From the NCBI RefSeq assembly GCF_030812675.1, contig NZ_JAUSTE010000004.1, forward strand, positions 62,001 to 126,000: a stretch of 64,000 nucleotides of DNA, given 5' to 3'. This DNA comes from Sinomonas atrocyanea. Its GTDB lineage: Bacteria > Actinomycetota > Actinomycetes > Actinomycetales > Micrococcaceae. Every line of letters begins with the position of its first letter. The stretch's first letter is position 1. The notes under the pieces are model-generated. The model was not told where the DNA came from, ran no database searches, and was given only the letters and a program-made list of their open reading frames with translations. The translations under genes and the position numbers were made by a program. Shown here one piece after another: positions 38,956 to 43,992 of this stretch.

Positions 38956-41664
38956 TCACTTCGCGGCAGCGACGTCGAACACTCCGTGCGCGCCGCGCTC
39001 CGCGTCCACCGTGTAGTGGCTCACGAACGGATAGTGCCCCGCTTCGGGGAACGTGAGGTCCACGAAGCCGCCCTGGGCGGGTAAGAGGTCGAGGGCCTGG
39101 GACGCGCCCGCCTGTGTTCCGCCCGGCCCCGGGGCAAGCCGGTACGCGCCCTCCGCCCAGACCGCGCCGAACTGGGCCCCCACCACATGGAACGACGTCG
39201 CGCGGCCGGGGCCGGCGTCGAGCACCCACACGCGCACCCGCTCGCCCGCGCGCACGGCGAGCGGCGCGGCGTCGTACTGGTTCGGGTACCCGTTGAACAC
39301 CACTGCGTCCGGGGTGCCCGCGGTGATCTTCGCCGAGTCGGCGATCCCCGGCGCGCCGTTGGACGCCGCGCCGCGGTACTGCTCGCTCTGGACGAGCACG
39401 AACTCGTGGTCCACCGGAGGCGCATCCGGCGGGTCGACCACCATCGCGCCGAACATCCCGTTCGCGATGTGCAGGGACATCGGCATGGTGGAACAGTGGT
39501 ACATCCAGATCCCCGCCTCCGTGGCCCTGAACGTGTACGTGAGCCGCTGGCCGGGGTCAATGGTCCGCATCGGCCCGTCGGGGGCGAGCGCGCCGGCGTG
39601 GAAGTCGATCGAGTGGCCGGCGGAGGCGTCGTTGACGAGCGTCACCTCGAACGTGTCCCCCACCCTGCCGTGCAGCACGGGCCCGGGCGCCGTGCCGTTG
39701 TAGGTCCACAGGGTCTGGGTGACGCCGGGGGCGACCTCGGCGACTGTGTCGCGCACCGTCAGCGTCACGCGGTGCACCGTGCCCGGGGGCACCGCGGGGA
39801 GGTCCGCCGGGTAGGGGGTGTGCGCGGCCGCCGGGGCGCCGGAGGAGGCGGGCTGCATGCCCGGCATGTCCATGCTCCCCGGCGCGGGGGCGGCCGCCGC
39901 GGAGGGCTGCGGGGCGCCGGTCACGCTGACCCGGAACACCATACCCATCTGCCGGTGGCCCACCACGGAGCACCAGCCGTCCACGGACTGCGCCATGACA
40001 CCGGCGTCGAGCTCTCCGCTCCTGCCGGGGTAGATCCGGGAGGAGTCCTGGCCGGTGGCGAGGACCAGGTCGTGGGCGGTCTGGTCCTTGTTCGCCAGGC
40101 GGATGACGAGGCGGTCTCCGGCCGGGACGCTGACCGTGCCGGGCACGAAGCGCATCCCGGACATCGCGACGTCCACCGTCGTGGTGTGCCCGGTGGGCGC
40201 GACCGCGGACCCTCCGGCGGCGGCCGCGGGGCTCCCGCCGCCGGCGACGGGGAGGACGGAGGGGTCGGCGGCCACGCCGGCGACCACCGCCGCGAGCAGC
40301 ACCGCGAGTCCCACCGCACCCGAGCCGAGGCGGCTGCGCACGGAGGCGCCCGCCTCGACCGGCCCGGAGCCGCCGGGGCGGCGCTCCCGCTCCCCCCGGG
40401 CGCCGGGGTCGCGCCCGGGGCGGCCCAGGAAGGCGCGCCCGGCGAGCCACACGAATCCCACGAGGGCCGCAAGGCCCGCCACCGCGGCCGCGACGCGGAC
40501 AGCGCTGGGCACGGGCAGGAGGTAGAGGGCGAGTGCGCCGTTGGCGAGGGCCACGCGGAGCCAGGCGCCGGCGTCGAGCGTCTCGGTGCGCCGACGGACC
40601 GCCGCGGGGCCGCCGCCGAGCACCACGGGCAGCAGGTAGGACAGGGCGCCCGCGAGCACCTGGGCGGCGAACCCGGCCGCGAGCGCCGGCGTGAGGCCTC
40701 CGAGGGCCACGTGGAGCGCGTCCCAGTCGGGAGCCGCCAGGCACAGCCACGCGAGGCGGGCCAGGGCGCCCACGAGCCAGACGAGCGAGGCGACGGCCGA
40801 CAGCGGGGCGAACGCCACCGGCGCCTTGCGCCGCACCGCCCGGGCGAGCGGGACCGCGGAGACGAGCACCCCGGCGAGGAAGAGCACGACGCCGGCCCCG
40901 GCCGCCGCGCGGACCCCCGCGAGGGCGCCTCCCGCGGCGAGGCCGACGCCCGCGAGGAGGACCCAGAGCGCCCGGCGGGCGATGGGCTCGGCGGAGTCGT
41001 CGGCCCGCGTGCGCAGCATCGTCGGAAGGAGGGTCACGAGCGTGCCGAGGACGCTCAGGCCAACCCACCCGAGGAGGTTGAGGGACTCGTGCGCGAGCAG
41101 GAGCCGGGCGTGCAGGTCCCCGCCGTCGTCAGTCCCCGGGAGCGCGAGCAGTGCCCCCGCCGCGGCGCCGAACGGCAGGATCGCGCACGCAGCGAGGTAG
41201 TAGCGCAGGGTGGACCGGAAGCGCGAGGCCAGGGCCCGGCGGAGCCTGACCAGCAGCGCGGCCCCGTGCCATCCCGCCGCCGCGCCCACGGCGGCGGCGC
41301 CGGACACCGCCAGCGGCCACACCCCGGCCACGACTCCCGCCATCGCGGCGGCAGCACCCACGTTGAGGAGCACGAGCCGCGCCGCGAGCGCCCGTCGCGA
41401 CGGCACCGGCAGCCGCAGCAGCGCCTCGGCGAAGTGCCACGAGTAGACGAGGATCGCGTTCGTCGCCGCGCCCAGGAGCGCGAGGTGCACCAGCAGCCAC
41501 CCCGAGGCCGGGATGCCTCGGTGGATGCCCGAGAGGACCGCGATGGCGAGCAGCCACACGAGCGTGGGCGCGTTGGCCCAGCGGTGCCACTGCGCCCGCC
41601 CGGTGCGCGCCTGGCGGCCGGGAGCCGCGGGATCGGCGGCTGCGGGAGGGACGGTGGGCATCAT
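38956..41664 (-). CDS. Membrane-cupredoxin-copper nitrite reductase fusion
   Basis: The 902-residue protein has three parts. Residues 1 to about 465 have around ten to twelve membrane helices, with His in LVHLALLGAATNAILVYSWHF and in AHESLNLLGWVGLSVLGTL. Residues about 490-580 are a cupredoxin with type-1 copper ligands (AHDLVLATG His near 530; GWCSVVGHRQMGM Cys/His/Met near 566). Residues about 620-902 are a two-domain copper nitrite reductase: GHSIDFHAGAL (His, Asp98-type, His) near 687, MYHCSTMPMSLHIANGM near 725, FHVVGAQFG (His255-type) near 828 and SHY near 882. It probably reduces nitrite to NO on the outer face. It overlaps the next gene upstream as ATGA. Confidence 0.88.
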   Translation of the reverse strand: MMPTVPPAAADPAAPGRQARTGRAQWHRWANAPTLVWLLAIAVLSGIHRGIPASGWLLVHLALLGAATNAILVYSWHFAEALLRLPVPSRRALAARLVLLNVGAAAAMAGVVAGVWPLAVSGAAAVGAAAGWHGAALLVRLRRALASRFRSTLRYYLAACAILPFGAAAGALLALPGTDDGGDLHARLLLAHESLNLLGWVGLSVLGTLVTLLPTMLRTRADDSAEPIARRALWVLLAGVGLAAGGALAGVRAAAGAGVVLFLAGVLVSAVPLARAVRRKAPVAFAPLSAVASLVWLVGALARLAWLCLAAPDWDALHVALGGLTPALAAGFAAQVLAGALSYLLPVVLGGGPAAVRRRTETLDAGAWLRVALANGALALYLLPVPSAVRVAAAVAGLAALVGFVWLAGRAFLGRPGRDPGARGERERRPGGSGPVEAGASVRSRLGSGAVGLAVLLAAVVAGVAADPSVLPVAGGGSPAAAAGGSAVAPTGHTTTVDVAMSGMRFVPGTVSVPAGDRLVIRLANKDQTAHDLVLATGQDSSRIYPGRSGELDAGVMAQSVDGWCSVVGHRQMGMVFRVSVTGAPQPSAAAAPAPGSMDMPGMQPASSGAPAAAHTPYPADLPAVPPGTVHRVTLTVRDTVAEVAPGVTQTLWTYNGTAPGPVLHGRVGDTFEVTLVNDASAGHSIDFHAGALAPDGPMRTIDPGQRLTYTFRATEAGIWMYHCSTMPMSLHIANGMFGAMVVDPPDAPPVDHEFVLVQSEQYRGAASNGAPGIADSAKITAGTPDAVVFNGYPNQYDAAPLAVRAGERVRVWVLDAGPGRATSFHVVGAQFGAVWAEGAYRLAPGPGGTQAGASQALDLLPAQGGFVDLTFPEAGHYPFVSHYTVDAERGAHGVFDVAAAK

Positions 41665-42926
41665 GGCCGGGGCTCCCCTGCGGTCCTGGGCCCGCTGGCC
41701 GTTCGCGGCTCGGTGGAGGTTCGGGGCCCTTCGGTGCTTCTGGGCCCGTCGATGCTCCTGGGTTGGCCCGGGCGGGCCGCCGACCAGGCCGCGAGCAGCA
41801 CGAATGCCAGGACGGCGAGGACGTTCCCGGCCCCGCCCCACTGCCAGGCCACCGTGTCTCCCCGCGCGTCGCCGAGGCCGAGCCGCAGCAGCAGCGTCGC
41901 GTGCAGGAGCACCGCCGGGAGCCACATCGCCGGTCGGTACGGGAGCGGGCGGCGCAGCACGGCGGGGAGGATGACGGGCGCGTGGGCCATGACCATGGAC
42001 ATGACGAACCCGAGGAAGACCGCGTGCAGGAACGCGTCGTACGCCGCTCCCGAGGGACTGCCCGGGACGAGGAGGCATACGCCGGCGGCCACCGCGAGCC
42101 ACGCGTAGCCCGCGAGGAGGCACGCGGCGACGTACCGCGGCAGGCCGGACGAACGGACCGTGGCGCGGGCGACGTCGTACCGCACGAGCCACGCGGCGAG
42201 CGCGAGCACGGCGAGGCCGAAGAGCGGATACCCGGCGGCCGGCCACAGCGTCGCTGCGGGGCACAGGGCCACGAGCGCGGCGTTCGCCGCGACGAGGAGC
42301 GGTTCGGCCCAACGGCCGCGGATCCGCAGGCGGGCCAGCTCGAGCCGCTCCCCGGCGATGGTGGCGAGGAGGAACGCGGCGAGCCAGGGCACGACGGCCG
42401 GAACCGCCACCCCGGCGGCCAGGAGCCCGGCGGCTCCGGCGGCCGCCACGGCCCCGAGCGCCTGGACGAGCACCGCCGGGTCCCGCTGCCGGCGCCACAG
42501 CGGCACGTATACGAGGGCGAAGGCGATCGCGCCCGCCAGCAGCGCGAGGCGTGCGGGCCACGCCGGACCCCAGGGCGCGAGCTGGGCGAGGGCCCCGCCT
42601 CCGAGGAGGGCGGGGGCCGCATAGCCCCAGGCCCGGCGGAGCGCGACCGCCCGTTCGAGCGCGATGAGCGTGCCCACGAAGCCGAGCACCATGAGGGTCC
42701 CATGGTCTGCCGGCAGCAGGGGCGCCGTGTGGCCGCCCACCGGGGCCGGGAACTCGAGCAGCACCAGGGCCGCGTCGAGTCCCGCGACGAGCGAGGCGCC
42801 ACCCACCGCGAGGAGCAGCGCCCGGTGCCAGACCACCGTTCCGGGGCGAGGGCTGCGCGCGGCGGCCGGGACGCGGGGACCGGCCTTGCGCGATCCGGCG
42901 TCCCGGGCACCGGCATCCCGGCTCAT
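41661..42926 (-). CDS. NnrS-like multi-pass membrane protein
   Basis: This 421-residue membrane protein has about twelve helices and His-bearing helices ADHGTLMVLGFVGTLIALERAV (near 80) and AFLHAVFLGFVMSMVMAHAPVILPAV (near 300). These resemble NnrS haem/copper membrane proteins tied to NO stress and denitrification. The first motif also resembles the membrane part of the neighbouring reductase. The C-terminal 35 residues are a degenerate repeat (SIDGPRSTEGPRT-type). It overlaps the regulator gene upstream and the reductase gene downstream by 4 nt each, so the three are one operon. NO handling is inferred. Confidence 0.78.
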   Translation of the reverse strand: MSRDAGARDAGSRKAGPRVPAAARSPRPGTVVWHRALLLAVGGASLVAGLDAALVLLEFPAPVGGHTAPLLPADHGTLMVLGFVGTLIALERAVALRRAWGYAAPALLGGGALAQLAPWGPAWPARLALLAGAIAFALVYVPLWRRQRDPAVLVQALGAVAAAGAAGLLAAGVAVPAVVPWLAAFLLATIAGERLELARLRIRGRWAEPLLVAANAALVALCPAATLWPAAGYPLFGLAVLALAAWLVRYDVARATVRSSGLPRYVAACLLAGYAWLAVAAGVCLLVPGSPSGAAYDAFLHAVFLGFVMSMVMAHAPVILPAVLRRPLPYRPAMWLPAVLLHATLLLRLGLGDARGDTVAWQWGGAGNVLAVLAFVLLAAWSAARPGQPRSIDGPRSTEGPRTSTEPRTASGPRTAGEPRP

Positions 42927-43633
42927 GCCGGGCCGATCGTGAGCAGGCACGCGCCCGGCTCGGCGAAGGGCTCGAGCCGGGCCCGCAGGCCGGGCTGGCC
43001 GAGCAGCAGCAGGGACTCGTCGACGAGCCCCGCGTGGACCGAGCAGACGACCCGTGGTTCGTCCCTCGCGGCGGCCAGGAGCGGGCACGCGACGAGCCGG
43101 ACCCGCTCCCCGGAGTCAGCGGCATCTGCCGGGGCTCCAGGTGCGGGTGCCGGGGCGATCGCGAAGCCGAGCTCGTCGAGCTCGGTGAGGACGCGGCGTC
43201 GGGCGTCCTTCGCCGAGACCGGGCCCGCGGCCGGCGCGAGGGCACGCCGTGCCCAGCTCCGGCCCGCCTCGGCACCGGCCGCCGCAGGGTCGGGGGCGAG
43301 CCGTGCCACCTCCGCGGCGAGCACCCCGGCGAGGGCGGCGTAGCCCGGGGCCTGGGGAGCCAGCTCGGCGGGACGGTACCGCTTCGCCGGCCGCCCCCGG
43401 CGGCCCTGTCCTGCGGGGGCACCCGCGGCGGCCTCGAGGAGCCCCACTGCCACGAGGGCCTCGAGGTGCTCGCGGACGGTGTTGGGGTGCTGCCCCGTCT
43501 CGCCGGCGAGTTCCTCGACGGTGCACGGGCTGCGCCGTGCCCTGACGAGGTCGAGCACTGCCGCGCGGGCGCCCGAGAGCGGCAGGGCGGGACCGGGGGC
43601 GGCGGGCTGGGGACCGAGCGGACTATTTTCCAC
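42923..43633 (-). CDS. Winged-helix regulator with conserved-type cysteines
   Basis: This 236-residue regulator has an N-terminal ArsR/MarR-like winged helix (GARAAVLDLVRARRSPCTVEELAGETGQHPNTVREHLEALVAVG without the ends) and a basic wing (GRRGRPAKRY). The C-terminal domain carries CPLLAAARDEPRVVC (Cys-x13-Cys) and a later Cys in GACLLTI, like the sensor half of Fe-S or thiol regulators such as SufR. A response to NO or oxygen fits its operon but is inferred. Its GTG lies 7 nt after TACAAT, and that -10 is inside a palindrome, so it probably represses itself. Confidence 0.82.
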   Translation of the reverse strand: MENSPLGPQPAAPGPALPLSGARAAVLDLVRARRSPCTVEELAGETGQHPNTVREHLEALVAVGLLEAAAGAPAGQGRRGRPAKRYRPAELAPQAPGYAALAGVLAAEVARLAPDPAAAGAEAGRSWARRALAPAAGPVSAKDARRRVLTELDELGFAIAPAPAPGAPADAADSGERVRLVACPLLAAARDEPRVVCSVHAGLVDESLLLLGQPGLRARLEPFAEPGACLLTIGPA

Positions 43634-43637
43634 GGGA

Positions 43638-43651
43638 TTTATTGTAGTAAA
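43638..43651. promoter_or_regulatory. AT-rich dyad operator over divergent promoters
   Basis: TTTATTGTAGTAAA has TTTA/TAAA ends and inner T/A symmetry. On the minus strand it contains TACAAT (43641-43646), the -10 of the leaderless regulator gene. On the plus strand it contains TATTGT, a -10 that would give the DUF2249 gene a leader of about 40 nt. It is one of the few AT-rich words in this window and a likely operator of the winged-helix regulator. Confidence 0.6.
43641..43646 (-). promoter_or_regulatory. -10 hexamer of leaderless regulator gene
   Basis: TACAAT on the minus strand ends 7 nt before GTG 43633. It lies inside the 14-bp dyad, so binding of the regulator would directly block its own promoter. 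Confidence 0.6.
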
Positions 43652-43686
43652 GTTTCGGCCAGCAGAACCGATCGGAAGGACGTGCC

Positions 43687-43992
43687 GTGGAATACACCGC
43701 AGAGAACCCCCTCACCCTGACCCAGAAGTCCTCGTGCGCCTGCGGGGAGCACGACGGCGAGGGGTTCCCCGAGCTCGACGTGCGGGTCATCCCCCACGCG
43801 ATCCGCCACGCGACGATCTTCGGCGCCCTGGACTCCCTCGCCGTGGGCGCCGGTCTCGTGATCGTCGCCAACCACGCGCCGCTGCCGCTCCTGGCCCAGG
43901 TTGACCAGCGCTACCGCGAGGGCGCCTTCGACGTCTCCTACCTCTCCGAGGGTCCCGAGGAATGGAAGGTCCAGTTCCGCCGGGAGGCGTGA
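43687..43992 (+). CDS. DUF2249 protein
   Basis: This 101-residue protein has a short N-terminus with a CACGEHDGEG motif and then the DUF2249 domain (ELDVRVIPHAIRHATIFGAL; ANHAPLPLLAQVDQRY; LSEGPEEWKVQFRRE). DUF2249 proteins often accompany haemerythrins, nitrite reductases and other anaerobic or NO genes. The biochemical role is unknown. GTG start with AAGGA about 8 nt upstream. It is divergent from the regulator and shares its operator. The His/Cys cluster before the domain could bind metal. Confidence 0.85.
   Translation: MEYTAENPLTLTQKSSCACGEHDGEGFPELDVRVIPHAIRHATIFGALDSLAVGAGLVIVANHAPLPLLAQVDQRYREGAFDVSYLSEGPEEWKVQFRREA

Follow-up and report, generated by a model that had tools for sequence, protein, structure and literature searches.

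A membrane domain of predicted heme-copper oxidase fold joined to a cupredoxin and a copper nitrite reductase in Sinomonas atrocyanea and other actinobacteria

How does a Gram-positive bacterium supply electrons to a copper nitrite reductase (CuNIR) that works outside the cell? For Bacillus azotoformans, the choice between a direct and an indirect menaquinol route to NirK is cited as unresolved in PMC3475470. The question is raised by a locus of Sinomonas atrocyanea lying in a stretch of 64,000 nucleotides (the window; contig NZ_JAUSTE010000004.1, positions 62,001 to 126,000). There a single open frame of 902 codons, without internal stop, joins a membrane domain, a type-1 (T1) cupredoxin and a two-domain CuNIR (Table 1). 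This fusion is a real and widespread variant of CuNIR, common among actinobacteria yet little studied. Because its donor module appears to be built into the enzyme, the electron supply of extracellular NirK in Gram-positive bacteria becomes approachable on one purified protein.

The three parts, proposed in a preliminary description of the locus, were recovered by the open frame, by domain searches and by an AlphaFold model. Pfam, NCBIfam and PDB searches locate the cupredoxin at about residues 488-582 and the CuNIR at 614-898: Cupredoxin_1 (488-552, E 1.5e-7), Cu-oxidase_3 (638-746, E 4.8e-17), TIGR02376, the NCBIfam model of Cu nitrite reductase (626-898, E 2.7e-46), and the three-domain CuNIR of Hyphomicrobium (2dv6), which aligns with residues 474-898 (E 2.7e-44). 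The model (54-sequence alignment; mean predicted local distance difference test, pLDDT, 88.1; predicted template modelling score, pTM, 0.69) displays 12 helices, a thirteenth at 441-466 and beta regions after it, with the two-cupredoxin fold of CuNIRs in the C-terminal part. As we orient it, helix 13 would place the rest of the chain outside. A frameshift between the membrane and reductase parts is very unlikely, because the same fusion recurs in 80 further loci.

The Hyphomicrobium denitrificans enzyme (2dv6, 6tfd, 6tfo) is the best match of the fusion both by sequence and by Foldseek. In both proteins a T1 cupredoxin, complete in its ligands in the fusion, stands N-terminal to a two-domain CuNIR, but the matched Hyphomicrobium chains have no membrane domain. 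The Geobacillus CuNIR (3wia, 3x1e), described as a predicted lipoprotein in PMC3475470, differs from the fusion in having two domains.

Table 1. Features of the fusion locus, in positions of the window
Feature	Position	Strand	Remarks
Fusion protein, membrane domain + cupredoxin + CuNIR (NirK type), 902 aa	38956..41664	-	
Fusion residues 1-418, 12-helix membrane domain	40411..41664	-	predicted heme-copper oxidase subunit I fold; H60/H192 invariant
Fusion residues 441-466, 13th predicted membrane helix	40267..40344	-	model secondary structure
Fusion residues 494-582, T1 cupredoxin	39919..40185	-	ligands H531, C565, H570, M575
Fusion residues 618-902, two-domain CuNIR	38959..39813	-	T1 H684/C724/H732/M737; type-2 (T2) H689/H723/H883; catalytic D687 + H826
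12-helix membrane protein, 421 aa	41661..42926	-	labelled NnrS-like in the preliminary description; invariant H75, H301, H315
Winged-helix regulator, 236 aa	42923..43633	-	conserved C183, C197, C229; GTG start
Element TTTACTACAATAAA	43638..43651	read on -	imperfect palindrome overlapping -10-like TACAAT, 7 nt before regulator GTG
DUF2249 protein (PF10006), 101 aa, divergent	43687..43992	+	Pfam

Is the C-terminal part a nitrite reductase? Residue conservation was counted over 81 fused sequences, i.e. the window protein and 80 relatives. The four cupredoxin ligands are each found in 81/81, as are eight CuNIR residues (H684, D687, H689, H723, C724, H732, H826 and H883); D687 and H826 are the equivalents of the catalytic Asp98 and His255 of classical numbering. 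Thus the T1 ligands, T2 histidines and catalytic Asp and His first noticed by eye in the window protein are confirmed by the alignment, which together with the fold match serves as proxy for a convergence of the copper ligands in space. The T1 axial residue of NirK, M737, is Met in 74 of the 81 sequences, including the window protein, and Leu in seven, from Nocardioides and Humibacillus loci (L068, L082, L096, L097, L102, L106 and L107). The position matching Ile257 of classical enzymes is indeed Val (V828), as also noticed; 69 sequences have Val and 12 Ile. Val is not unusual, since the Geobacillus CuNIR has FHVVG too in the PDB-search alignment.

With TIGR02376 the window protein scores 158.4 bits, below the curated equivalog cut-off of 296.3. 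All of the 54 aligned relatives match this model (E <0.001), and their best E of 3.1e-53 suggests that they likewise fall under the NCBI threshold. With its score the window protein is outside the curated equivalog; the cut-off is a naming threshold and represents no chemical feature. A two-domain copper oxidase of other activity would agree with a score so far under the cut-off, and some matching public records (Pseudomonas) are named only "multicopper oxidase domain-containing". But this seems quite improbable, because both catalytic residues, the T1 His-Cys-His set and all three T2 His are invariant, and CuNIRs are the best neighbours in structure and in sequence. Fold and residues argue strongly for a NirK, and nitrite reduction is the activity to be expected from them.

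What could the membrane domain contribute? By structure comparison of the model, which speaks for the structural families on its list and excludes none outside it, the 12 helices are predicted to fold like subunit I of heme-copper oxidases. Only H60 (helix 2) and H192 (helix 6) are invariant histidines of this domain (81/81), followed by H48 (80/81) and H133 (78/81). The helix-7 His pair and helix-10 HxH of heme-copper oxidases, a reference pattern taken from a NorB-like protein, have no conserved His in the corresponding predicted helices of the 81 rows: no His column exceeds 8/81 in helix 7 or 14/81 in helix 10, in contrast to CcoN of cbb3 and NorB of cNOR (8smr, 3mk7, 4xyd), which share at most 13% identity with the fusion. 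Of the "His-rich helices" claimed at the outset, two invariant His within helices stand, but the domain is not simply His-rich; its predicted fold is that of oxidase subunit I, without most of the oxidase ligands.

When the alignment of the membrane domain was searched against Pfam and PDB sequences, no useful match emerged, and hhalign comparison with the NorB set gave no support (P 0.15-0.2); "NorB" and "CcoN" are our labels for the compared sets, given from PF00115 matches, motifs and gene context. Against CcoN, helix 6 of the membrane domain was aligned by hhalign onto helix 10 (P 0.0055). A permutation of the whole helix order was considered and is unsupported, natural and permuted orders scoring alike (30.1 for the natural order of CcoN and for a cut before helix 5, 29.3 for a cut before helix 9); the helix-6 motif alone is supported.

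Starting from what was observed directly, i.e. architecture, ligands, synteny, upstream element and predicted fold, we lean towards a membrane-anchored CuNIR that forms nitric oxide (NO) with a built-in electron supply. A route through the oxidase-fold domain would be the most economical reading of the predicted fold and the two invariant His, and the passage of electrons within one chain from membrane to catalytic site, proposed earlier, is plausible. The 12 helices would have lost the O2- or NO-reducing metal site of the oxidases and kept H60 and H192, the probable ligands of a b-type heme close to the outer face. The domain would take electrons from menaquinol directly or from a neighbouring respiratory complex; these would pass to the T1 copper of the tethered cupredoxin, then to the T1 copper of NirK and to the T2 site, where nitrite would be reduced to NO outside the cell. 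The fusion would probably let actinobacteria form NO extracellularly without separate electron carriers, and the oxidase fold would, if this is true, be reused outside O2 and NO reduction.

We propose only tentatively, as an idea that may well fail, that this one polypeptide is a self-contained menaquinol:nitrite oxidoreductase. Its membrane domain would descend from an oxidase and be degenerate, and its helices may follow an order displaced by four from that of cbb3, so that helix 6 carries the motif of helix 10. With a single heme placed between His60 and His192, this domain would drive the extracellular NirK via the tethered cupredoxin. The polypeptide would then be a widespread actinobacterial NO source under the NCBIfam NirK naming threshold. 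Since the window protein, and apparently its relatives, fall under this threshold, the NO-forming capacity of soil actinobacteria may be under-counted. The membrane domain could instead deliver copper or heme to the reductase: three Met occur in the linker of the window protein (M598, M600, M603) and membrane chaperones exist for some copper enzymes. This is highly improbable given the oxidase-like predicted fold with invariant His inside helices, and a covalent one-to-one chaperone would be unusual.

How widespread is the fusion, and does its membrane domain occur alone? We had to reject its uniqueness: the 80 near-full-length relatives were kept out of at least 364 found, and the full fusion occurs in 7 of the 26 genomes of its own class, S. 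atrocyanea included, in a sample of 296 genomes of the phylum. A match at E <=1e-20 occurs in 68 of the 296; no match spanning the fusion was found in the other 270, at most three candidates being scored per genome. In PLSDB 477 plasmid records match the fusion and none covers more than 80% of the query. The 80 kept loci span at least 16 actinobacterial families and 78 are labelled Actinomycetota. The loci L040 (labelled Sporosarcina, 67% G+C) and L064 (Bacillus, 73% G+C) are placed next to Arthrobacter and Blastococcus by the tree, probably because the assemblies are contaminated or carry a wrong label.

A membrane-part match detached from the reductase part was seen in 13 genomes, of which 11 have a NirK-part match as well, versus 48 of the remaining 276 (kinship ignored, and some weak NirK-part matches may be other copper oxidases). 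Among 14 genes that encode the membrane domain alone, three (L018, L116 and L120) have a nirK-like gene as immediate neighbour. At L116 the adjoining NirK match is of half length only; at L120 the membrane gene is followed, after a stop, by a NirK with a C-terminal part that is cupredoxin-like by eye. At L126 and L128 the standalone gene is near a homologue of the Cys-bearing regulator of Table 1 and an open reading frame whose start is COX1-like by eye; the surrounding stretch contains no nirK match. In a NirK-domain tree of 65 rows (43 sampled of 87 fused sequences and 22 others above 150 bits, L029 and repeat locus copies left out) the fused form is one clade, with support 100/99. A quick tree of the membrane domain was built from 37 fused and 14 standalone sequences. 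Its unconstrained search needs two changes, but constraining the fused rows together gives a higher likelihood (p of the approximately unbiased test, p-AU, 0.63); a single origin of the fused form is thus not rejected.

Several results weigh against a built-in electron supply. In the model the linkers 474-485 and 588-606 have a pLDDT below 50, which makes the docking of the domains uncertain; the score stays under the curated TIGR02376 cut-off; and by sequence the membrane domain is linked to CcoN weakly (1 of 14, E 0.0039), the link pointing to helix 10, not helix 6. Moreover, since 11 of the 14 standalone genes lack an immediately adjacent nirK-like gene, and no gene for the membrane domain lies within 5-6 kb of three cupredoxin-NirKs that are close sisters of the fused form (L113-L115), the partnership of membrane domain and NirK is not obligatory. 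These last two points, with two of the 11 genes (L126 and L128) near a COX1-like gene by eye, would equally suit a real reductase whose membrane domain is mainly an anchor and an NO- or heme-binding protective module, a role known for NnrS, and whose cupredoxin has another electron source such as the cytochrome bcc complex. It is also favoured by the presence in the operon of another membrane protein with predicted oxidase fold. But the direct fusion to the cupredoxin has been maintained in one clade, and the adjacency with nirK-like genes at L018, L116 and L120 is separate from it; we regard the anchor as possible rather than probable.

The membrane-fused NirK architecture is already in print. 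PMC5338063 (2017) describes an 882-aa NirK of Corynebacterium pseudotuberculosis that conserves the CuNIR residues and begins with some 500 residues predicted to contain 13 membrane helices, and similar NirK sizes in C. durum and C. vitaeruminis. Like the window fusion it has an N-terminal 13-helix part and a C-terminal CuNIR; its section 3.6 is sequence analysis only and names no cupredoxin, oxidase fold or operon. Another fusion, of cytochrome C1 with cupredoxin-NirK, is reported from Chloroflexi in PMC8756737. Literature searches in open-licence papers found no description of the oxidase fold, operon or operator of fused NirK. New here are the predicted oxidase subunit I fold of the membrane part and its neighbour, the one-clade fused form with a membrane part that also occurs alone, and the regulator's three Cys with TTTAYTACAnT-N7-GTG.

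The fusion is the last gene of an overlapping operon, after the regulator and the 12-helix membrane protein. The stop of the 12-helix gene overlaps the fusion start codon as ATGA; this gene lies directly upstream of the fusion in 72 of the 80 relative loci, with the same 4-base overlap in 60 of the 72. The regulator stands upstream of it on the same strand in 56/80 (upstream DNA is shorter than 2 kb in five loci). The operon, 12-helix protein and Cys-bearing regulator of the preliminary description therefore hold, but the NnrS-like label does not: PF05940 (NnrS) has no match in the 12-helix protein, 4 of its 48 relatives match weakly and none better than E 0.15, and profile comparison of the family with NnrS gives P 0.16. 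NnrS identity is thus unsupported by sequence, even though NnrS is likewise polytopic and belongs to NO-related gene sets (PMC1274295). The NnrS model had no match in the S. atrocyanea genome, but control genomes gave none either, and this negative carries no weight by itself; the model does function, as it matched 2 of 6 plasmid records. The 12-helix protein, too, is predicted to fold like subunit I of heme-copper oxidases, and it likewise lacks the His pair of helix 7. Recent duplication of this protein and the fusion membrane domain is unsupported (BLASTP E 0.16; profile P 0.012).

The regulator's three Cys are present in 67 of 68 rows, the remaining row having a gap, and would fit an Fe-S, SufR-like pattern; SufR_cyano weakly matches 30 of 39 regulator relatives and is absent from the window regulator's own four matches. 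TTTAYTACAnT is the probable site at which the regulator controls the operon, with an NO- or redox-labile Fe-S cluster of the regulator as the likely signal; the regulator might thus sense NO. We consider TTTACTACAATAAA a probable candidate for both an operator overlapping the promoter and a leaderless promoter of the regulator. The TTTAYTACA pattern, first seen in Sinomonas, i.e. chosen after looking, was found upstream of the regulator in 29 of 60 regions (24/55 without the five Sinomonas) versus 2 of 12,000 background windows; the exact string is absent from the remaining 31 regions. Across the 80 loci (1.09 Mb) it has 31 occurrences, 29 of them upstream of the regulator, where TACAnT ends exactly 7 nt before the GTG in 28/29; this fixed spacing therefore fits a leaderless start. 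These 29 loci lie among L033-L100; at L065 an ATG is also nearer to the element than the GTG. In its own genome the 14-mer has one site only, allowing up to two mismatches.

NarG is present in the S. atrocyanea genome; narG (contig C1, 727751-731426) was matched as two pieces that overlap but lie in different open frames, which may reflect a frameshift or an assembly error. A classical NO reductase is unlikely there, because a single COX1-type gene was found while the same model matches NorB-like genes in plasmid records. Two of these, on Azospirillum plasmids, are annotated "cbb3-type cytochrome c oxidase subunit I" and lie beside a NorQ-family gene; NorB is our reading. Two globins (frames of 411 and 425 aa) could, from their length, be flavohemoglobins, and the NO would likely be oxidized or released.

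The DUF2249 gene is found in 66/80 relative loci; a PHROGs search with the protein gave no match. DUF2249 also occurs on a Maritalea plasmid (L141, 7555-11909), where nirK and a pseudoazurin gene lie between two DUF2249 genes, adjoining an Rrf2 regulator.
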